From Arthrobacter sp. JZ12 (GTDB lineage Bacteria; Actinomycetota; Actinomycetes; Actinomycetales; Micrococcaceae), in the NCBI RefSeq assembly GCF_035189165.1, contig NZ_CP045246.1, forward strand, positions 1,488,001-1,552,000: a stretch of 64,000 bases of DNA. Direction: 5' to 3'. Position numbers and translations under genes: made by a program. Shown here in pieces: positions 14,902-25,095 of the stretch. The notes under the pieces were generated by a model. It was not told the origin of the DNA. It did no database searches and saw only the letters and a program-made list of their open reading frames with translations. Each line of letters starts with the position of its first letter. The stretch's first letter is position 1.

Positions 14902-15807
14902 CTAGGGGTTGTCGAGGTCCCGTGCTGCGAAAGTATCGCACGCTTCAATGTCGCCGGTTTCGAGACCCCGGAGGAACCAGGTTTGACGCTGTTCGCTGGA
15001 GCCGTGGGTCCAGACCTCGGGGTTGACCTGCCCCGTGGTTGATTCCTGGATGCGGTCATCTCCTACGGCCGACGCCGCCGACAGAGCGTCCTGTAGGTCC
15101 GTCCGGGTGAACTCGCGCAGGAAGGGCACACCCGATTCAGGATCGGGGACGCTCGTCGCGTGCGCCGCCCACATGCCTGCGTAGCAGTCTGCCTGCAGTT
15201 CGACACGGACAGCGCCGGATTCCTCGCCCCGCGGGTCCTGCTGTGAAGCACCCAGCGTGCCCGTCAGGTTCTGGACGTGATGCCCGAACTCGTGGGCGAT
15301 CACGTACTCCTGGGCGAGCGGACCTCCGGAAGCCCCGAATCGTGCCACCAGATCGTCGAAGAACGCGGTGTCGTAGTAGGTTTGCTCATCCGCCGGGCAG
15401 TAGAACGGCCCGACTGCGCTGGTCGCCGCCCCGCAACCGGTGTTCGTCTGACCGCTGAACAGGACAACGCCCGGCTGTGTGTACTGCACGCCGTAGGGCT
15501 CAAGGTACGGCCCCCAAAAGCTGTCCAGGCTTTCCGCCGTCCCCAGGATGCGGCAGTCGAGCCGCTCATTGGCGTCCTCGCCTGTCCTGCAGGATTCGAT
15601 GGCAGGGTCTTCGTTCGCGCCGATTCCGGGAGCGCTGCCACCACTGCCGTCCAGCCCCAACTGGTCAACGACGCCCGGCCCGAAGAACAGTGACAGCAGG
15701 AGAATGAGCCCGCCGCCGAGGCCGCCACCGATGGCTACACCCCGACCGCGGCCCCGACGGTCGCTCACACGGGACGGGTCAAACTGTGCGTTGTCATTGA
15801 AGCTCAT
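14902..15807 (-). CDS. YpfJ-type neutral zinc metallopeptidase, membrane-anchored
   Basis: A 301-residue protein with a basic cytoplasmic start, a Gly-rich transmembrane segment (about 24-45), and an extracytoplasmic zinc peptidase domain of the YpfJ/Zn_peptidase family. The zinc site is H172-E173-F-G-H176, and several cysteines (73, 85, 125, 137) could form disulfides outside the cell. Substrates are unknown. A TAGAGT -10 six bases before the ATG predicts a leaderless mRNA. It is divergent from the thioesterase gene. Confidence 0.9.
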   Translation of the reverse strand: MSFNDNAQFDPSRVSDRRGRGRGVAIGGGLGGGLILLLSLFFGPGVVDQLGLDGSGGSAPGIGANEDPAIESCRTGEDANERLDCRILGTAESLDSFWGPYLEPYGVQYTQPGVVLFSGQTNTGCGAATSAVGPFYCPADEQTYYDTAFFDDLVARFGASGGPLAQEYVIAHEFGHHVQNLTGTLGASQQDPRGEESGAVRVELQADCYAGMWAAHATSVPDPESGVPFLREFTRTDLQDALSAASAVGDDRIQESTTGQVNPEVWTHGSSEQRQTWFLRGLETGDIEACDTFAARDLDNP

Positions 15808-17083: not shown

Positions 17084-18112
17084 ATGCAGTACAGGAAACT
17101 CGGCAGCAGCGGAACCTCCGTGTCCACCTACGCGCTGGGCACCATGACCTTCGGCGCGGAAGCCGATGAGGCAACGTCCCACGGCATCCTCGACGATTAC
17201 GCGGACGCCGGCGGCAACTTCATCGACACCGCCGATGTCTATACGGCCGGGGCGTCCGAGGAGATCATCGGACGGTGGCTGACCAAAAGCGCCGCGGCGG
17301 GGGAGATGATTCTCGCCACCAAGGGTCGCTTCCCGATGGGCAAGGACGTCAACGACCTCGGGCTCTCCCGCAGGCACCTGCGGCTGGCCCTGGACGCTTC
17401 GCTCAAGCGGCTGGGCGTGGACCACATCGACCTCTACCAGATGCATTCCTGGGATCCGCTCACTCCATTGGAGGAGACGCTGGGTTTCCTGCACGACGCT
17501 GTGGCCGCCGGCAAGATCAGCTACTACGGCTTTTCGAACTACACCGGATGGCAACTGACGAAGGCTGTGGGGATTGCCCGTGCGCGCGGATGGGACCTGC
17601 CGGTCACCCTGCAGCCCCAGTACAGCCTCCTGGTCCGGGGGATCGAAGCGGAGATCGTGCCCGCTGCGCTCGACGCCGGGATGGGGCTCCTGCCCTGGTC
17701 ACCGCTGGGCGGCGGCTGGCTTACCGGCAAGTACCTTCGGGATACCGCCCCGCAGGGGGCCACCAGGCTGGGCGAGAACCCTGAACGCGGCATGGAGGCG
17801 TGGAAGAAGCGCAATGCGCAGGAGCGCACGTGGGCGATTATCGACGTCGTGCTTGAGATCGCCAACGCCCGGGACGTCAGCGCCTCACAGGTGGCGCTCG
17901 CCTGGGTAGAACAGCAGCCTGCGGTTACCTCCGTCATCCTCGGCGCGCGCACCACGGAACAGCTGGCCGACAACCTTGCGGCGGCAACTCTGCAGCTGTC
18001 GCCCGAGGACGTCCAGCGTCTGTCCGAAGTAAGCGCTCCCGATTTCGCGGACTACCCCTACGGCGGGCCGGGCATTGAGCAGCGCAGCCGGCGGATCGAC
18101 GGCGGCCGCTGA
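17084..18112 (+). CDS. Aldo/keto reductase
   Basis: A 342-residue NADPH-dependent aldo/keto reductase of the YajO/Tas-like group. The catalytic tetrad is visible: D48 and Y53 in FIDTADVYTAG, K80 in ATKGRF, and H121 in LYQMHSWDP. A (beta/alpha)8 barrel of normal length is predicted, and cofactor-binding residues lie near LGARTTEQL at the end. AGGAG precedes the ATG at 17084; longer in-frame extensions upstream overlap the DUF427 gene and are not supported. The physiological substrate is unknown. The PPTase gene starts four bases after its stop. Confidence 0.92.
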   Translation: MQYRKLGSSGTSVSTYALGTMTFGAEADEATSHGILDDYADAGGNFIDTADVYTAGASEEIIGRWLTKSAAAGEMILATKGRFPMGKDVNDLGLSRRHLRLALDASLKRLGVDHIDLYQMHSWDPLTPLEETLGFLHDAVAAGKISYYGFSNYTGWQLTKAVGIARARGWDLPVTLQPQYSLLVRGIEAEIVPAALDAGMGLLPWSPLGGGWLTGKYLRDTAPQGATRLGENPERGMEAWKKRNAQERTWAIIDVVLEIANARDVSASQVALAWVEQQPAVTSVILGARTTEQLADNLAAATLQLSPEDVQRLSEVSAPDFADYPYGGPGIEQRSRRIDGGR

Positions 18113-18116
18113 CCCT

Positions 18117-18758
18117 ATGGAGATTCATGCCGTCCGGCTTGACGGACATCCTGTCGAAGAGCTGGACGACGGCGAACGCGTTCGCGGCGGGATGCTGGTG
18201 GACCCTGCAGTACGGCATCGGTTCTTGGCAGGCCGCTCCTGGTTGCGCGGGCTTGTGAGCCGCGCGTCGGGGGAACCCGCCGGGAGGCTGGTCTCGCGCT
18301 CAGTCTGCCCTGCATGCGCCGAGGATAACCATGGAAGGCCCGGATTCTTCGTCGGCAGTAAGGAGGTTCCGGTCTCCGTGAGCCTTAGCCGCAGCGGCGG
18401 ATGGGCTGTCGCCGTACTTGACAGGTCCGGCGCCCAGCAATCCCTGGGGATTGATCTTGAACAGATTGACCGCTTTGAGGGCAACGGGCTGGACCTGGAC
18501 ATCTTCACGCCGGCCGAACGCGCTGCCGTCCGCGCCGCGGATGAGGACCGGCGGCCGGACGTGCGCGCAGTCCTTTGGTCCCGGAAGGAGGCCGTCCTCA
18601 AGGCGGCCGGCACCGGACTCCTCATTGAACCCGGAGAGGTCGATGTACTCGCCGATACGGTGACGGTGGAATCCTGCAGCTACTCGGTTTCCAATCTGGA
18701 CCCCGAAGAACTGGGGCTGCCGCAGGGTTTCGTCGTCGCGCTCGCCCGAGGTCGGTAG
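18117..18758 (+). CDS. 4'-phosphopantetheinyl transferase, Sfp-type
   Basis: A 213-residue enzyme that transfers phosphopantetheine from CoA to a serine of carrier domains. Magnesium ligands are D113 and E115 in GIDLEQIDRF; the W154-S-R-K-E158 and K162 motif and the upstream VSLSRSGG segment are also present. It starts four bases after the aldo/keto reductase stop, without a clear ribosome binding site, so translation may be coupled. The Pls/PosA-like synthetase with its carrier domain is transcribed toward it 1.4 kb away and is the obvious local substrate; this is inferred from proximity. Confidence 0.88.
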   Translation: MEIHAVRLDGHPVEELDDGERVRGGMLVDPAVRHRFLAGRSWLRGLVSRASGEPAGRLVSRSVCPACAEDNHGRPGFFVGSKEVPVSVSLSRSGGWAVAVLDRSGAQQSLGIDLEQIDRFEGNGLDLDIFTPAERAAVRAADEDRRPDVRAVLWSRKEAVLKAAGTGLLIEPGEVDVLADTVTVESCSYSVSNLDPEELGLPQGFVVALARGR

Positions 18759-18761
18759 CGG

Positions 18762-18819
18762 GCTCGATCAGGAGTGTTCGATCAAGGCGATGCTCCATCA
18801 GGGAGGTGCTCCATCAAGG
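18762..18819. repeat. Four imperfect G(C/T)TC(G/C)ATCA repeats
   Basis: The 9-mer occurs at 18762, 18776, 18792 and 18808 (spacing 14, 16, 16), each followed by AGG or GGG. It fills the gap between two convergent genes and runs into the last codons of the M1 peptidase gene. Confidence 0.6.
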
Positions 18820-20175
18820 CAAGGCCGGAAGCCGTGCCTGGTACAGCCACGGCTGGAGCAGGGCGGCCGCATCGAACCCGTCCAGGCCTGCGCACACTTC
18901 GTCGGCAAGACTGACGAAGTCCACCGTACTCACGTTCGCGTGCCGGAATTGCGAGGTCCAGTACTGCAACGTCCGGAAGAAAAGCTCGTCGCCCACCACC
19001 ATGCGAAGAGCGTGGAGCGTGCAGGCGCCGCGCTTGTAAACCCGGTCGTCGAACATGTCAGCGGCGCCGGGTGCACCGATCGCGAGGTCCTGCTTTGCTG
19101 AGGCGAGCCGCTGCCAGGCCTGCTCGGCGCGGGCTGCGGCAGTAAGGGATCCGGACTCTTCCGACCAGATCCACTCGGCGTAGCAGGCGAATCCCTCATG
19201 CAGCCAGATGTCCTGCCAGGAGGAGGCAGTCACGGAGTTGCCGAACCACTGATGCGCCAGTTCATGGGCAACAAGGCGTTGCGCTTCCCACTCAGCACTG
19301 AGGTGGTTGCGGCCGAACACCGATAGGGTTTGGGCTTCGAGCGGAATCTCGAGTACGTCGTCCGCAACCACGACGGTGTAGGTCGAGAAGGGGTAGTGCC
19401 CGAATCGGCGCGAGAAGGCGTCGATCATGTCCCCCTGCCGCGCCAGCGCCTTGCGTGCCGCGGGGAGAAGGGCGGAAGGCGCGGCGACGTACTGAGGCAC
19501 GGTGCCGCCGTCGTCGAGCTGTGCCAGCCCGTAGCGCCCGATCTGCACGGTGGCGAGGTAGGTGGCCATGGGAGCGTCGGTCTCATAGACCCAGGTTTCG
19601 CGGCTGGACTTGACGGTGTGGGAGGTCAGTTCGCCGTTGCACACGGCCCGGTACCCGGCGTCCGTCGTCACGCTGATCCTGAAGGCTGCTTTCCTGCGGG
19701 GGTGGTCATTGCAGGGGAACCAGGACGGTGCACCCGTCGGCTGTCCTGCAACCAGAACGCCGTCCGTCAGTTCCTCCCAGCCAACATCGCCCCAGGTGCC
19801 GGAGATGGGCGCCGGGTTGCCCCCGTACCTGACCTCTAGCGTGAAGTGGCTACCGCCGGCCAGCGGTTCGGCGGGGGTCACGGTGAGGCGCCCGTTGGCT
19901 GTTCCCACCTTGCGCACCCGCTCGCCGTTCAGTACGGCGCGGGCAACGCGCAGTCCGTCAAGGTTGAGCACCAGCGTGCGCAGCTTGTCCGACGGTGCCC
20001 CGCTCACCTCGCCGGTGAGAACTGCCCGACCCTCCAGCCGGTTACTGGCCACCCTGTACTCGAGCTCGATGTCGTACGAGCTGACCGAGTAGTCCCAGCT
20101 GCCGTGCCGGGGAGCATACGGGTCGACGAGGGCGTTCCCTGCATCTTGGGGAAGACTGTCGGTGGGTTGTGCCAT
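18814..20175 (-). CDS. M1 family zinc metallopeptidase (short form)
   Basis: A 453-residue aminopeptidase-like protein. The zinc motif is H304-E-L-A-H308 with the third ligand E327 (HExxH-x18-E). The substrate-binding GxMEN motif of classic PepN is replaced by IPLEAQ, as in other short actinobacterial M1 proteins. The C-terminal helical domain of 850-residue PepN enzymes is absent. No signal peptide is visible, so it should be cytoplasmic. Its start overlaps the synthetase stop (TGATG), so the two proteins are made together. A role in processing or degrading the synthetase product is inferred. Confidence 0.88.
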   Translation of the reverse strand: MAQPTDSLPQDAGNALVDPYAPRHGSWDYSVSSYDIELEYRVASNRLEGRAVLTGEVSGAPSDKLRTLVLNLDGLRVARAVLNGERVRKVGTANGRLTVTPAEPLAGGSHFTLEVRYGGNPAPISGTWGDVGWEELTDGVLVAGQPTGAPSWFPCNDHPRRKAAFRISVTTDAGYRAVCNGELTSHTVKSSRETWVYETDAPMATYLATVQIGRYGLAQLDDGGTVPQYVAAPSALLPAARKALARQGDMIDAFSRRFGHYPFSTYTVVVADDVLEIPLEAQTLSVFGRNHLSAEWEAQRLVAHELAHQWFGNSVTASSWQDIWLHEGFACYAEWIWSEESGSLTAAARAEQAWQRLASAKQDLAIGAPGAADMFDDRVYKRGACTLHALRMVVGDELFFRTLQYWTSQFRHANVSTVDFVSLADEVCAGLDGFDAAALLQPWLYQARLPALP

Positions 20176-23100
20176 CAGGAAACCAAGACCTTATCTGCTG
20201 CCGGATCTGCTTCCGGAGGCTGGGACTGGACGCGCTTCCAGGGGCTCACCGGATTGCCCATCCAGTAGCTGCCGGCCGGAACAGTCTCGCCCCGCATGAC
20301 AAGCGATGCGGGCCCTACCGTGGAACCTGCGCCGAGCCGGGCAGCGGGAAGGATCACTCCGTGCGGCCCCATGGTCGCGCCGTCCTCCAACGTTACGGTG
20401 TCCGTAGCCATGACGCGGTCATGGAACAAGTGAGTCTGGACGACGCACCCCCGATTCACGGTGGAGCTGTCGCCCAGGTGCACCAGATCAGCCTCGGGCA
20501 GCCAGTAGCTTTCGCACCAGACCCCGCGGCCGATCTTCGCGCCCAGTGCCCGCAGCCACCACACCAGCGCCGGCGTGCCGCTGGCCGCCCGGGCGAACCA
20601 CGGTGCCGCCACAGTTTCCACAAACGCGTCCACCACCTCATTCCGCCAGATGAACGAGCTCCACAGTGGATGCTCACCTGAACGGATTCTGCCGATCAGC
20701 AGCCACTTGACGACGACGGCGCTGCCCGCCGCCACTGCGCCGGCCAGCATCATCACAGCGCCACCGGCCAGAACCGCCACGCCGTAGCCCCACTGGTGGG
20801 CAATCAGGTCGAGCAGGAACAGGACCAGCCCCGCGATAGCGACCGTGAGCACGGTTGCGGCGAAGCGCGTGACTTCCCAGGCACCACGGGCTACGCGGAG
20901 GCGGGTCGATGGAGCATAAGTCAGCTCCTCGTCGGCGAGCATTTGCGTCCGGCGTAGGCGGACAGGTGGGGAGCCGAGCCAGGACGTGCCGGCTTTGGCC
21001 TTGGCCGGGGTGGCGGACAGGACTGCGACCAGCGAGTTCTTCGGCACCCGGCGGCCTGCGCCCGTCATGCCTGAATTCCCCAGGAAGGCCCGCTTGCCGA
21101 TCTTGGCCGGCGCGATCTTCATCCACCCGCCGCCGAGCTCGTACGAGGCCACCATCGTGTCGTCAGCCAGGAAGGCGCCGTCACCGATCGTCGTCATTTT
21201 CGGCACCAGGAGCACGGTCGAGATTTCGACGTGACGGCCCACCGTTGCGCCCAGCAGGCGGAGCCACACGGGGGTGAAGAGGCTGGCATAGAGCGGGAAG
21301 AGCAGGTCCCGGGCCAGATCGAGCACCCGTTCCGTAGCCCAGACCTGCCAACCGATGCGGCTGCGTACAGGGTGCCAGCCCTCGCGCAATCCGAGACCCA
21401 GCAGGCGTACGGTCACCAGGACCAACAGCATCAGAGTCAGGAACCAGAGGGCAGCGGCCAGTGGGAGCTGCAGAAGGATCTGCGGGGATACTTCGGAGAA
21501 GGTGGTCAGGCCCTCCAGAGCCGGAACCAGCGGCAGGACCGCTACTGCGGCCGCGACAAATGGTATGCCGGCCAGGGCGATGGATCCCGCCGCGTAGGCT
21601 ACGAAGCCCAGGGGACGTCGTCGAGAGGGCAGGGCAGGCCATTCCTGCCGCGCCTTCCCCACACGCGCCGCTGGCGAGCCGGAGAAGTGCTGGCCCGGCT
21701 TCACCTTGCCCGAAACTGCGGAGCCGGGCGCCACGACTGCTCCGGACCCGACTTTCGCGCCCGGCATGAGGGTGCTCCGGGCTCCGACCGTCGCCCCTGT
21801 TCCGATGCTGATTCGTCCGATATGGACCAGGTCTCCGTCCACCCACCACCCGGAAAGGTCCACCTCGGGTTCCACCGAACTTCCGCTGCCCAGGTTGAGC
21901 ATGCCCGTCACGGGCGGAACCGAGTGCAGGTCCACGTCCCGCCCCACGTTCGCCCCCAGCGCACGTGCGTAGTAGGTGATCCATGGGGCGCTGGCGAGGC
22001 TGACTGCTGAGGCCATATCGGCGATCTGCTCTGCGAGCCAGAGCCGCAGGTGAACCCGGCCGCCGCGGGGATAGCTCCCCGGTCCCACTCCGCGAAGCAG
22101 CAGCTTGGCGGCACAGACAGCGATCACCATCCGGCCACAGGGACTGACAAAGATTGCCCAGCTCACTGCGATCCACCACCAGGAAACCGAAAGCGGGCCG
22201 GTGAAGACTCCGAACGCGGCTAGCAGGTTGTTGGCCACCATGAGGTAGGTGAGCCAGCGCATGGCCACCAGGATGTGCAGCGGCACACCCATAACGGTCT
22301 GGAAGATCTGGGCCTTGCGCCGCGTGCGGGCGACGGGCCGAGGGGGAGCGTCGCCGTCTCCCGTGTCGGACTGCCGCACGAGGTCGATAAGGGCGCCGAC
22401 GCGGGGGTGGGCGTAGATGTCAGCCACGGTGATTGTCGGGTTGCGTCGGCGGAGCGCGGACACCAGTTGCGCGGCGGACAGGCTTCCGCCTCCGTGGGCA
22501 AAGAAGTCTGCGTCCAGCGAGGTCACGGAGGTGCCCAGGACCGCCGCGAACTGGTCTGCCACCCACTTGCCGGTCTCGTCGAGATCCAGGCTCGCGGCGT
22601 CGTCGTCGTTCTGGGCGCCCGGCAGCGGCCAGGGGAGGGCTGCGCGATCCACCTTGCCGCTGGTCTTGGTGGGCAGGGAATGGGTTTCGGTCAGCAGCGG
22701 GATGAGCGGAGCTGGAAGCGACGCGGTCAGCTGCTCACGCAGGGCCATGAGATCCAGTGCACCGGCGGCCGGAACAAGGTACCCCACCAGCACCTGCGTG
22801 CCGGCAGCAGTGTCCTTGACCGCAGCCGCCGCACCGGAAACACCGGGCAGGGCCTGGAGGGCCGCATCCACTTCGCCGAGCTCGATTCGGCGCCCCCCGA
22901 GCTTCACCTGCTCATCAGCCCGGCCCTTGAAAATGAGCCCCTCGAGCTCGAACTGGACAAGGTCACCGCTACGGTAGGCGCGTTCCCAGCCGAGCGTCGG
23001 GAAGGGAGCGTACTTCTCGCGGTCCTTGCCGGCGTCCAGGTAGCGCGCAAGCCCAACGCCCCCGATGATCAGCTCGCCAATTCCACCCTCGGCAACCGGG

Positions 23101-24092
23101 ATGCCGTTGGTATCGACCACGGCCAGGTCCCAGCCGTCAAGCGGCAGCCCGATCCGGACTGGGCCGGTGCCGGTCAGCGGCGCAGCGCAGGCGACGACCG
23201 TTGCTTCGGTGGGTCCGTACGTGTTCCAGACCTCCCGCTCGCCATCGGCCAGCCGAGCGGCGAGCTCGGGCGGGCAGGCCTCACCACCGAAGATGAGGAG
23301 CCTCACCGATTCAAGAGCTTCAACCGGCCACAGCGCGGCGAGCGTGGGCACAGTGGACACGATCGTAACGCCGCGGGTGACAAGCCACGGCCCGAGGTCC
23401 ATGCCAGTGCGTACCAGTGCCCGGGGAGCCGGTACCAGGCATGCGCCATGCCGCCATGCCAGCCACATCTCCTCGCAGGAGGCATCGAACGCGACCGACA
23501 GTCCGGCGAGAACCCTGTCAGTGGGTCCGGCGGGCTCCTTCTGCAGGAAAATCCGGGCTTCAGCATCCACGAAGGCTGCGGCAGAACGGTGGGTGACGGC
23601 CACGCCCTTGGGGGTTCCGGTGGAGCCGGACGTAAAGATGATCCACGCGTCGTCGTCGGGAAGGGGCTGACGCGGCGCGGCAAACGGGCCCTTGCGGTCC
23701 TTGTGCACCTTGATCCGGCCGTCGGCCAGGATTACGCCGGCCACGCCCGCTTCGCTGAACACCAGCCTGGCCCGCTCGTCCGGGTCGTCGGCGTCCACAG
23801 GCACGTACGCTGCGCCGATCATCAGGGTGGCGAGAATCGAGATATACAGATCAGCGGTCCCCGAAGGAATGCGGATGCCGATCCGGTCGCCCGCGCCCAG
23901 CCCCTTGGCATGCAGTTTCCGTCCAACCGCCCGCACGGCATCGAGCAGTTCGGTGTACGTCAGTCGGTTGTCGCCGTCGTCCAGTGCGTAAGCGTCCGGG
24001 TGGACCTCAGCCGTAGCCGTGAGAATATCGATGAGCGTCCGTGTCGGGGGCGCGGCTGAGAGCCCTGGCAATTGGGGAGCATGGAGTGTCAC
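20175..24092 (-). CDS. Pls/PosA-family nonribosomal peptide synthetase-like protein
   Basis: A 1305-residue single-module synthetase. An adenylation domain (about 15-490) carries FTSGSTGTPKG, FDASCEEMW, NTYGPTEAT, YRSGDL, GRADEQVKLGGRRIELGE and PTKTSGKVDR. The carrier domain (505-575) has the attachment serine S537 in HGGGSL. Then come three hexapeptide-repeat regions (about 710-805, 940-1040, 1180-1280) separated by transmembrane stretches (600-670, 828-905, 1075-1130). This matches epsilon-poly-lysine synthetase (Pls) and PosA architecture; there is no condensation or thioesterase domain. The product amino acid cannot be read reliably. GTG 24092 is chosen for GGGAGAA seven bases upstream. 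Confidence 0.88.
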   Translation of the reverse strand: MTLHAPQLPGLSAAPPTRTLIDILTATAEVHPDAYALDDGDNRLTYTELLDAVRAVGRKLHAKGLGAGDRIGIRIPSGTADLYISILATLMIGAAYVPVDADDPDERARLVFSEAGVAGVILADGRIKVHKDRKGPFAAPRQPLPDDDAWIIFTSGSTGTPKGVAVTHRSAAAFVDAEARIFLQKEPAGPTDRVLAGLSVAFDASCEEMWLAWRHGACLVPAPRALVRTGMDLGPWLVTRGVTIVSTVPTLAALWPVEALESVRLLIFGGEACPPELAARLADGEREVWNTYGPTEATVVACAAPLTGTGPVRIGLPLDGWDLAVVDTNGIPVAEGGIGELIIGGVGLARYLDAGKDREKYAPFPTLGWERAYRSGDLVQFELEGLIFKGRADEQVKLGGRRIELGEVDAALQALPGVSGAAAAVKDTAAGTQVLVGYLVPAAGALDLMALREQLTASLPAPLIPLLTETHSLPTKTSGKVDRAALPWPLPGAQNDDDAASLDLDETGKWVADQFAAVLGTSVTSLDADFFAHGGGSLSAAQLVSALRRRNPTITVADIYAHPRVGALIDLVRQSDTGDGDAPPRPVARTRRKAQIFQTVMGVPLHILVAMRWLTYLMVANNLLAAFGVFTGPLSVSWWWIAVSWAIFVSPCGRMVIAVCAAKLLLRGVGPGSYPRGGRVHLRLWLAEQIADMASAVSLASAPWITYYARALGANVGRDVDLHSVPPVTGMLNLGSGSSVEPEVDLSGWWVDGDLVHIGRISIGTGATVGARSTLMPGAKVGSGAVVAPGSAVSGKVKPGQHFSGSPAARVGKARQEWPALPSRRRPLGFVAYAAGSIALAGIPFVAAAVAVLPLVPALEGLTTFSEVSPQILLQLPLAAALWFLTLMLLVLVTVRLLGLGLREGWHPVRSRIGWQVWATERVLDLARDLLFPLYASLFTPVWLRLLGATVGRHVEISTVLLVPKMTTIGDGAFLADDTMVASYELGGGWMKIAPAKIGKRAFLGNSGMTGAGRRVPKNSLVAVLSATPAKAKAGTSWLGSPPVRLRRTQMLADEELTYAPSTRLRVARGAWEVTRFAATVLTVAIAGLVLFLLDLIAHQWGYGVAVLAGGAVMMLAGAVAAGSAVVVKWLLIGRIRSGEHPLWSSFIWRNEVVDAFVETVAAPWFARAASGTPALVWWLRALGAKIGRGVWCESYWLPEADLVHLGDSSTVNRGCVVQTHLFHDRVMATDTVTLEDGATMGPHGVILPAARLGAGSTVGPASLVMRGETVPAGSYWMGNPVSPWKRVQSQPPEADPAADKVLVS

Positions 24093-24198: not shown

Positions 24199-24226
24199 TG
24201 AACAGTCGGTGGCCCAGCGCTATAAC
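24199..24226 (+). promoter_or_regulatory. Promoter of the lipoate-ligase-like gene
   Basis: TGAACA (24199-24204), a 16-base spacer and TATAAC (24221-24226). It is divergent from the synthetase promoter in the same 157-base gap. Confidence 0.55.
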
Positions 24227-24249
24227 TGAGGGAAAGAACTGCTGAACGC

Positions 24250-24972
24250 ATGGACAGGAGCCCGGTCGGGATGAGCACGCAGGCCTGGTCGAACGGTCCG
24301 CTGGCGCTGGTGCGGGATCCGTCTAGGGGCGCCGCTGCCGACCTTGAGCGCGGGCTGGAGCTCCTCCGTGCCGCCGCCGCCGGAGAGCTTCCACCGACCC
24401 TTCGGCTCTATCGGCCAAGCCCCACAGTGGCTTTCGGGCAGCGGGACGCCCGGTTGCCCGGATTCCATGCGGCCAGTGAAGCTGCCCGCCGGCACGGCTT
24501 CGAACCGCTCATCCGCAAGGCCGGTGGAAGGGCGGCCGCCTACCACCCGGGATGCCTCATCGTGGACCACATCGAATCCCACGAGGACGCGATTGCCGGA
24601 TCCCGCGTGCGTTTCGGCCTGCTGGGGGAAATCCTTGCGGCCGCGCTGCGGAAGGTGGGCGTGGACGCGGCGGTCGGCGAAATCCCGGGCGAGTACTGTC
24701 CCGGCGAGTTCAGCGTGCACGGAAACGGCGCTGTGCAGATCAAACTGGTGGGCACGGCCCAACGGGTCATCTCGGGGGCCTGGTTGTTCTCGTCCGTCGT
24801 CGTTGTCGAGAATTCGGAACCCATCCGCGCGGTACTCGAAGACACGTACGCCGCGCTCGGGCTGTCGTGGGATCCTGCCACGGCCGGCGCCGCCGACGAT
24901 CTCCTTCCCGGGCTCACGGTGGACGAAGTGTCCGACGCGGTAGTCGCCGTGTACGACGAGGCGGCGCGCTAG
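24250..24972 (+). CDS. Biotin/lipoate A/B protein ligase family protein
   Basis: A 240-residue protein of the LplA/LipB/BirA catalytic superfamily. The conserved lipoyl-binding segment appears as RKAGGRAAAYHPG (consensus R-R-x-x-G-G-x-x-x-Y-H), with QIKLVGTAQRVISGAWLF carrying the catalytic-type lysine K164. It lacks the C-terminal accessory domain of E. coli LplA. It may attach lipoate or octanoate, or act as a related transferase. The start is uncertain: ATG 24250 or ATG 24271; neither has an ideal ribosome binding site. It is divergent from the Pls-like gene. Confidence 0.75.
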   Translation: MDRSPVGMSTQAWSNGPLALVRDPSRGAAADLERGLELLRAAAAGELPPTLRLYRPSPTVAFGQRDARLPGFHAASEAARRHGFEPLIRKAGGRAAAYHPGCLIVDHIESHEDAIAGSRVRFGLLGEILAAALRKVGVDAAVGEIPGEYCPGEFSVHGNGAVQIKLVGTAQRVISGAWLFSSVVVVENSEPIRAVLEDTYAALGLSWDPATAGAADDLLPGLTVDEVSDAVVAVYDEAAR

Positions 24973-25010
24973 GCTCAGGAGATGCCTTTCAGATCCTAAG
25001 CCTCCTGACC

Positions 25011-25039
25011 TTGTGGTCCGGACTGGCAATCCGTAGCGT
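25011..25039 (+). promoter_or_regulatory. Promoter of the formaldehyde dehydrogenase-like gene
   Basis: TTGTGG (25011-25016), a 17-base spacer and TAGCGT (25034-25039). The ribosome binding site AAGGAG lies shortly before ATG 25096. Confidence 0.55.
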
Positions 25040-25095
25040 GGCACAACAGCGGCGCCTGCCGCTTTTCATCTCCAGCACCTCGAAGGAGCAGGACC

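Follow-up and report, generated by a model that had tools for sequence, protein, structure and literature searches.

What does a single-module synthetase make when its gene runs directly into that of an M1 peptidase, and where does the peptidase act? The question is raised by a locus in the window, the 64,000-nucleotide stretch of Arthrobacter sp. JZ12 DNA (NZ_CP045246.1) that was analysed here. What it holds is an actinobacterial version of a two-gene unit that is already known, a Pls-type synthetase plus a peptidase. Sequence comparisons make us fairly confident that it is a pls-pldII-type operon, which would make the antimicrobial polymer epsilon-poly-L-lysine (epsilon-PL) and whose M1 enzyme would degrade the polymer, probably in the cytoplasm. 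The genes concerned are as follows.

20175..24092, minus strand: Pls/PosA-family synthetase, 1305 aa, GTG start (TIGR02353 at 708 bits, congener orthologs)
18814..20175, minus strand: M1-family metallopeptidase, 453 aa, PldII-type homolog without export signal (Pfam Peptidase_M1 and Peptidase_M1_N)
18075..18758, plus strand: 4'-phosphopantetheinyl transferase (PPTase), probably Sfp-like, true start not fixed (Pfam ACPS)
24250..24972, plus strand: divergent LplA-like gene (Pfam LplA-B_cat)

The synthetase frame runs on the minus strand from a GTG at 24092 to a stop ending at 20175; a longer ORF from 24278 is not needed. A sequence-only reading of this DNA had placed the 1305-residue product in the Pls/PosA family, and the TIGR02353 profile agrees (708 bits against a cut-off of 423.1). 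A chance match is excluded because of this score and because the arrangement recurs across Actinomycetes. Orthologs at 13 congener loci (L015-L027) are 70-85% identical. Upstream, the LplA-like gene and the synthetase start bound the operon, so that the unit consists of two genes. A minus-strand ORF (24220-25044) that was considered as a further upstream member is antisense to the LplA-like gene. The PPTase gene is convergent with the operon, at a distance of about 1.4 kb from the end of the synthetase gene, where a PPTase had been noticed before. It is probably the sole Sfp-like PPTase of the genome, in which there are two ACPS-family matches, the second in a 147-aa frame. A convergent PPTase at the pls locus is found mainly in near relatives.

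Within the synthetase an adenylation (A) domain is followed by a carrier domain and then by the stretch that matches TIGR02353 (597-1282). Pfam finds only AMP-binding, PP-binding and Hexapep, with neither a condensation nor a thioesterase domain.

22635..24017, minus strand: adenylation domain, residues ~26-486 (Pfam AMP-binding at 26-350; best PDB match 7wew)
Within it, minus strand: substrate pocket DAESIGTVVK, that is D203, A204, E207, S246, I267, G269, T291, V299, V300 and K480 (computed code)
22377..22565, minus strand: carrier (PP-binding) domain, residues 510-572, with Ser537 at 22482-22484 (Pfam PP-binding; serine index)
20247..22304, minus strand: membrane polymerisation domain, residues 597-1282, with long helices alternating with three predicted hexapeptide-type beta-helical regions (TIGR02353 stretch, model, fold matches)

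Which monomer does the A domain select? Its best solved-structure match is 7wew, the epsilon-poly-L-lysine synthetase of Streptomyces albulus (648 bits over residues 12-493). The ten pocket positions were placed by the GrsA convention and, as read from the alignment, they hold the same residues in both proteins. Lysine is therefore the predicted monomer, and the window synthetase is predicted to be lysine-specific. This fits the basic substrate proposed from the sequence alone. The core A-domain motifs are intact, and the essential residues, whose loss would have spoken against the sequence-only reading, are present. The same code is found in 16 of the 22 other synthetases compared; one (L061) differs at a single position and five (L062, L064-L067) differ more. 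According to one report, pocket position 2 is Ala with lysine, Met with ornithine and Phe with diaminopropionate or diaminobutyrate (PMC10522769). Could the product nevertheless be another cationic polymer, built from ornithine, diaminobutyrate or beta-lysine? The Pls/PosA family is chemically diverse, which leaves some room for the idea. However, the pocket is that of S. albulus Pls and unlike that of PosA (DMEHNGTVSK), and none of the scanned neighbours of the locus is a diaminobutyrate-type gene. We regard such a product as very improbable.

The polymerisation domain was said to contain three hexapeptide-repeat regions alternating with membrane segments. Pfam alone sees one such unit (residues 761-794), but a structure model of residues 500-1292 (mean pLDDT 89.8, pTM 0.91) has three regions of short regular strands with long helices between them, and its best matches among solved structures are mostly hexapeptide-type acetyltransferases. 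Together the strand pattern and these folds agree with three hexapeptide/beta-helix units, as modelled. The family criterion used for comparison is six membrane helices in pairs. Hydropathy marks five stretches (~641-665, 838-856, 877-905, 1079-1097 and 1104-1122), and a sixth long helix near 592-626 is visible in the model only. Searching PDB chains by sequence yielded nothing for this domain among the best 60 of 167 matches, and among the best 15 of 428 matches in the open-access literature on a solved polymerisation domain only the PosA paper is relevant.

The synthetase stop and the M1 start meet in TGATG, a 1-base overlap that had been pointed out earlier. The peptidase carries a complete zinc site:

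19195..19266, minus strand: HELAH-X18-E, residues 304-308 and 327 (aligned paired M1 proteins)

Both His and both Glu are invariant in all 88 aligned paired M1 proteins. The window enzyme, with its catalytic residues intact, is a putative epsilon-PL-degrading peptidase.

Is the pairing meaningful? The M1 gene adjoins the synthetase gene in 18 of 18 close orthologs and in 69 of 76 testable named loci, the remaining seven being four Kitasatospora, two Streptomyces and one Kocuria. In a class-wide sample the two are paired in 27 of 29 synthetase-bearing genomes (G175 and G075 are the exceptions), a count that leaves out the genome under study. The conserved coupling anticipated for this locus is thus found, where its absence would have told against the reading. 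Across 69 loci, the identity between two synthetases goes hand in hand with that between their M1 partners (r 0.93, without correction for species descent). When all ORFs of the neighbourhoods are clustered, the clusters are largely antisense and chained, and after synthetase and M1 the next ones reach at most 37 of 100 loci. Eleven of the 19 plasmid records with Pls have no M1 match on the record, and the five Streptomycetaceae loci without M1 (L077, L078, L083, L093 and L130) have no gene in common besides pls.

Perhaps the signal-less M1 is a general aminopeptidase, unrelated to the polymer and co-transcribed by chance. M1 enzymes are common and this genome encodes two others; moreover, some pls loci lack M1, and a Rhodococcus koreensis plasmid carries a close M1 (50% identical) with no synthetase match. 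Against this, the two genes overlap or nearly overlap at 87 of 88 loci (start choice favours overlap), M1 matches above 380 bits are confined to synthetase genomes in the class-wide sample (29 of 29, own genome included), and the coupled Streptomyces enzyme is reported to degrade epsilon-PL. We regard chance co-transcription as very improbable.

We return to a peptidase that acts on the polymer, and to the place where it acts. The accessible part of PMC9223678 describes Streptomyces PldII as external, outside the membrane, and contains no mention of a signal peptide. A twin-Arg motif with a hydrophobic stretch before the M1 core is absent from the window peptidase, in keeping with the cytoplasmic enzyme of the sequence-only reading. 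For want of an export signal we call it a PldII-type homolog rather than PldII, and it probably works in the cytoplasm. Only eight of the 88 paired peptidases have a Tat-like signal, all of them from Streptomyces; the window M1 and 79 others have none. The synthetases whose partners lack the signal fall into a single clade (78 rows, support 100). Given these partners, the synthetase at most chromosomal pls loci seen, that of the window included, seems to have a cytoplasmic peptidase at its side, which hints at protection or turnover inside the cell. In the open-access literature searched, the export signal of the peptidase brought up one unrelated paper, and we found no description of this pairing.

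What if synthesis and cutting are both intracellular? The operon would then maintain a lysine store or a cycle of short oligomers, with the cytoplasmic peptidase responsible for turnover and no secreted antibiotic. This is compatible with the main explanation and differs on purpose. It is favoured by the large synthetase clade in which the partner peptidases are all signal-less, and by the lack of epsilon-PL from native Corynebacterium variabile. However, epsilon-PL is reported from S. coelicolor cultures that express the C. variabile Pls, and pls copies without adjacent M1 exist. On balance we consider it a minority prospect. A broader version is equally tentative: the common Actinomycetes form of the operon, in one large synthetase clade and at nearly all chromosomal loci examined, might be an intracellular cycle of oligo- or poly-epsilon-lysine synthesis and turnover with a cytoplasmic, co-translated M1, rather than the antibiotic-secreting system familiar from Streptomyces, peptidase export having been gained or retained by the lineage of Streptomyces producers alone. 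The cycle might, just as tentatively, serve as a lysine store, supply a counter-ion to nucleic acids or phosphate polymers, or protect the cytosol.

In the pls-pldII-type operon that we prefer, the synthetase would adenylate L-lysine, as its pocket suggests. The convergent PPTase would phosphopantetheinylate the carrier, and lysine would then be loaded on Ser537. By analogy with characterised homologs, the membrane domain, with its three beta-helical units and membrane helices, would join lysines via the epsilon-amine into epsilon-poly-L-lysine. The co-translated M1 may shorten or degrade the polymer or stalled short chains, and a cytoplasmic location would suit self-protection or lysine recovery. 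An aminoacyl conjugate in place of a polymer had also been suggested; no feature of the locus supports it.

With this locus one more actinobacterium joins the likely producers of epsilon-poly-lysine, and the pls-M1 unit proves to be widespread and tightly paired. If the peptidases of the signal-less clade do act in the cytoplasm, this would bear on the retention of pls by so many actinobacteria with no known production, and on the function of the polymer.

How does the locus compare with known systems? It had been put forward as the best candidate in this DNA for an undescribed system. That label is rejected since the pls-pldII unit, its coupling, epsilon-PL degradation and pls in Arthrobacter and coryneforms are already published (PMC8117764, PMC9223678). 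Translation of pldII is reported to be coupled to that of pls, and the enzyme to break down epsilon-PL (PMC9223678); publications are at odds on the effect of PldII on chain length, and coryneform Pls homologs, including those of Arthrobacter, have identical or highly similar pockets (PMC8117764). The C. variabile operon, likened here by description, also combines Pls and a peptidase in a non-filamentous actinobacterium; its Pls made epsilon-PL in S. coelicolor, whereas C. variabile itself gave none in culture and C. glutamicum with the gene gave none although the protein was detected (PMC8117764).

PosA of Acinetobacter baumannii shares the architecture of A domain, carrier and membrane domain, and in its published model three beta-helices are packed together (PMC10522769); it differs in its ornithine pocket and single-gene operon. 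The poly-diaminobutyrate synthetases with dat and ask genes belong to the same family (PMC8117764) but have Phe at pocket position 2 and aminotransferase and aspartate kinase neighbours. A paralog elsewhere in the genus resembles this type, as the window locus does not, and diaminobutyrate-type genes adjoin relatives of that paralog.

The closest likeness is to S. albulus pls-pldII, in domain order, pocket residues (7wew), gene order and coupling. For the peptidase, the nearest named locus (L068) was compared in place of S. albulus PldII: its A domain shares 93% identity with 7wew, and the M1 partner that follows pls is taken as PldII by position. Relative to this pair the window synthetase is ~52% and the M1 ~43% identical (45% over residues 15-452). 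A Tat-like signal is present in the L068 partner and absent from the window M1. The unusual point of the window copy is thus a peptidase without export signal that probably stays inside the cell.

The synthetase ends where the M1 gene begins: the two genes overlap by 1 base at a TGATG junction. The operon consists of two genes, because the pair is bounded by a divergent gene on one side and a convergent gene on the other:

24092 to 18814, minus strand: synthetase (1305 aa) and M1 peptidase (453 aa)
24250-24972, plus strand: LplA-like gene, divergent, on the synthetase side
18075-18758, plus strand: PPTase, convergent, on the M1 side

At 14902-15807 on the minus strand, about 3 kb away from the M1 gene, is another metalloprotease gene, a member of the KPN_02809/YpfJ family.

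Against TIGR02353 the synthetase reaches 708 bits (cut-off 423). Pfam finds AMP-binding and PP-binding (Ser537) domains in it and no condensation or thioesterase domain. One clue to the substrate is that, among solved structures, the A domain best matches the S. albulus epsilon-poly-L-lysine synthase (7wew, 648 bits). The ten pocket residues, DAESIGTVVK, are identical in 7wew as read from the alignment, with the ten positions placed by the GrsA convention. The same pocket is common to 17 of the 23 synthetases compared (the window's and 22 others), and one more, L061, has DAESIGTVIK. The remaining five diverge more (L062 and L064-L067, the latter four with DFECLSVVTK). In PMC10522769, the PosA code is DMEHNGTVSK and Ala at position 2 is tied to Lys. 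The structural match, the identical pocket and this Ala together make lysine the predicted monomer.

The membrane domain was modelled from 60 sequences (residues 500-1292; mean pLDDT 89.8, pTM 0.91). The model has three regions of short regular strands with long helices between them, and hydropathy detects five of the six expected membrane stretches. The top PDB fold matches are mostly hexapeptide-type acetyltransferases (best E 1.7e-5), with query TM-scores of about 0.1-0.15, which are low because a single unit aligns. A three-fold beta-helix arrangement has already been predicted for PosA (PMC10522769). In the third unit all eight columns of QTHLFHDR (residues 1219-1226, with two His) are invariant in the 60 sequences, and no equivalent was seen by eye at the matching place in the first two units of the window synthetase. 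Therefore, the third unit may hold the catalytic site.

How general is the pairing with M1? Among 24 congener and order loci (fragmented copies from genome G030 were left out), 18 have M1 immediately downstream in the same orientation, and these are exactly the loci whose synthetase is at least 57% identical. M1 is missing from the other six, L061, L062 and L064-L067, which are more divergent. A set of named loci found with 7wew comprises the best 80 of at least 592 confirmed relatives. Four are truncated too early for a test (L069, L114, L116 and L121), and M1 is found in 69 of the other 76; the exceptions are L073, L077, L078, L083, L093, L112 and L130. In a class-wide sample of 148 genomes drawn evenly, 30 have a synthetase at E up to 1e-150, own genome counted, and M1 adjoins it in 28 (27 of 29 with the own genome excluded). 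In G175 M1 is on a different contig; none was found in G075, which has a synthetase with 40% identity. Every one of the 29 M1 matches that exceed 380 bits in this sample falls in a synthetase genome. Weaker M1 relatives are widespread, and 77 of the 148 have at least one at E up to 1e-40. As for damaged copies, the synthetase of one congener (L063, G011) is broken into three frames but keeps its M1, and that of another (L032/L040, G030) is in pieces at contig ends.

The pairing is weaker on plasmids than in the other samples. M1 lies within about 200 bases in six of 19 plasmid records with a synthetase and about 600 bases further on in one partial Tsukamurella copy, while second copies blur the assignment in one Streptomyces record. 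A search at E up to 1e-30 gives no M1 match anywhere on the other 11 records; these include three from R. opacus and five from the M. avium complex. Conversely, a Rhodococcus koreensis plasmid carries a 50% identical M1, yet no synthetase match. On one Rhodococcus opacus plasmid (L195) the M1-less pls sits amid CYTH/CHAD, PhoU and histidine phosphatase genes, hinting at a polyphosphate or phosphate-control connection.

The M1 genes themselves were compared as a set of 88 (the window's, 18 congener and order, 69 named). The chosen start is at most 60 bases from the synthetase stop in 87 and overlaps it in 76, although the start nearest the stop was preferred, which favours closeness; no proper start codon was found in L094. 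No variation occurs among the 88 in HExxH, the distal Glu or the Tyr. Among solved structures, the closest relative of the window M1 is 6a8z, a zinc metalloprotease of 474 aa (169 bits).

S/T-RR-x-L/F is the Tat motif. This motif together with a hydrophobic stretch, both ahead of the conserved core, occurs in eight of the 88 M1 proteins, all from Streptomyces (L068, L070, L071, L072, L074, L075, L076 and L087); individual start assignments may be mistaken. The window M1 and the other 79 lack the combination; L084 and L089 have the Arg pair and no hydrophobic stretch. With 28 class-wide proteins added, all of them signal-less, the count becomes 8 of 116; at least one sequence is in it twice (L104 = L169). 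The hydropathy margin is small: 1.47 for the weakest signal-bearing protein (L087) versus 1.38 for the highest other (L151, no Arg pair).

In a quick synthetase tree (98 rows, no mixture model, midpoint-rooted; short rows L063, L073, L099, L114 and L121 omitted), a single branch with support 100 separates the 78 synthetases with a signal-less partner from the rest. One change is enough for this trait, compared with an average of 18.5 after shuffling, and none of the 500 shuffles came down to that value. No single branch sets off the eight signal-bearing rows, which need three changes. Streptomyces L092, L103 and L104 lie inside the signal-less clade without a signal; thus the trait tracks the synthetase and not the genus. 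Twelve rows were marked M1-less, two of them (L069, L116) too short to test. Since the tree covers neither class-wide, G175 nor plasmid copies, the signal-less clade may include M1-less members. The nearest named synthetases to the window's are from Arthrobacter and Pseudarthrobacter, so the host is probably Micrococcaceae-like. The sequence-only reading had called the window M1 cytoplasmic, and this fits the signal-less pattern.

The PPTase is a less constant neighbour. A match lies beyond M1 in 12 of 14 M1-bearing congener loci (it is missing at L045 and at L046, whose flank is short) and in none of four loci from other families of the order. Of the named 80 (best 80 of at least 592), six have one no more than about 2.2 kb beyond the synthetase. 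The genome has only two ACPS-family matches, the window PPTase and one in a 147-aa frame, which from its length is probably AcpS. It also encodes a second, divergent TIGR02353 protein above the cut-off at another site, and the window PPTase probably serves both synthetases.

At L064:6447-11645 (G000:C1, outside the window), this second synthetase (30% identical) has downstream of it a protein of the lysyl oxidase family (PF01186) whose N-terminus is lipobox-like and for which oxidation or cross-linking of a polycation is a possible role. The pair recurs in G022; in G006 the PF01186 match is on another contig. In three congeners (L065, L066 and L067) a class III aminotransferase and an ACT-domain, aspartate kinase-like amino-acid kinase precede the second synthetase, a setting of the poly-diaminobutyrate type. 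An M28 peptidase lies downstream in L067, with a 61% identical counterpart in L066. In the window's own genome, the aminotransferase homolog (G000:C1:1039980-1041239, 74% identical) lies far from the second synthetase, at a distance of about 0.7 Mb.

What is already known of such operons? PMC8117764 describes a pls-peptidase operon in Streptomyces and C. variabile, and reports Pls homologs whose pockets are of the lysine type in Arthrobacter and seven further genera. There the C. variabile gene yields epsilon-PL in S. coelicolor, and native C. variabile and C. glutamicum carrying the gene yield none. PMC9223678 reports that pldII is translationally coupled to pls and that S. albulus PldII is outside the membrane, a location with which the signal pattern agrees. 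Publications differ on the product: according to a review, inactivation of Pld and PldII left chain length unchanged (PMC8506220), whereas PMC9223678 links repression to longer chains. With both the operon and Arthrobacter Pls homologs already published, the window locus belongs to a known kind and is a further example of the pls-peptidase operon.
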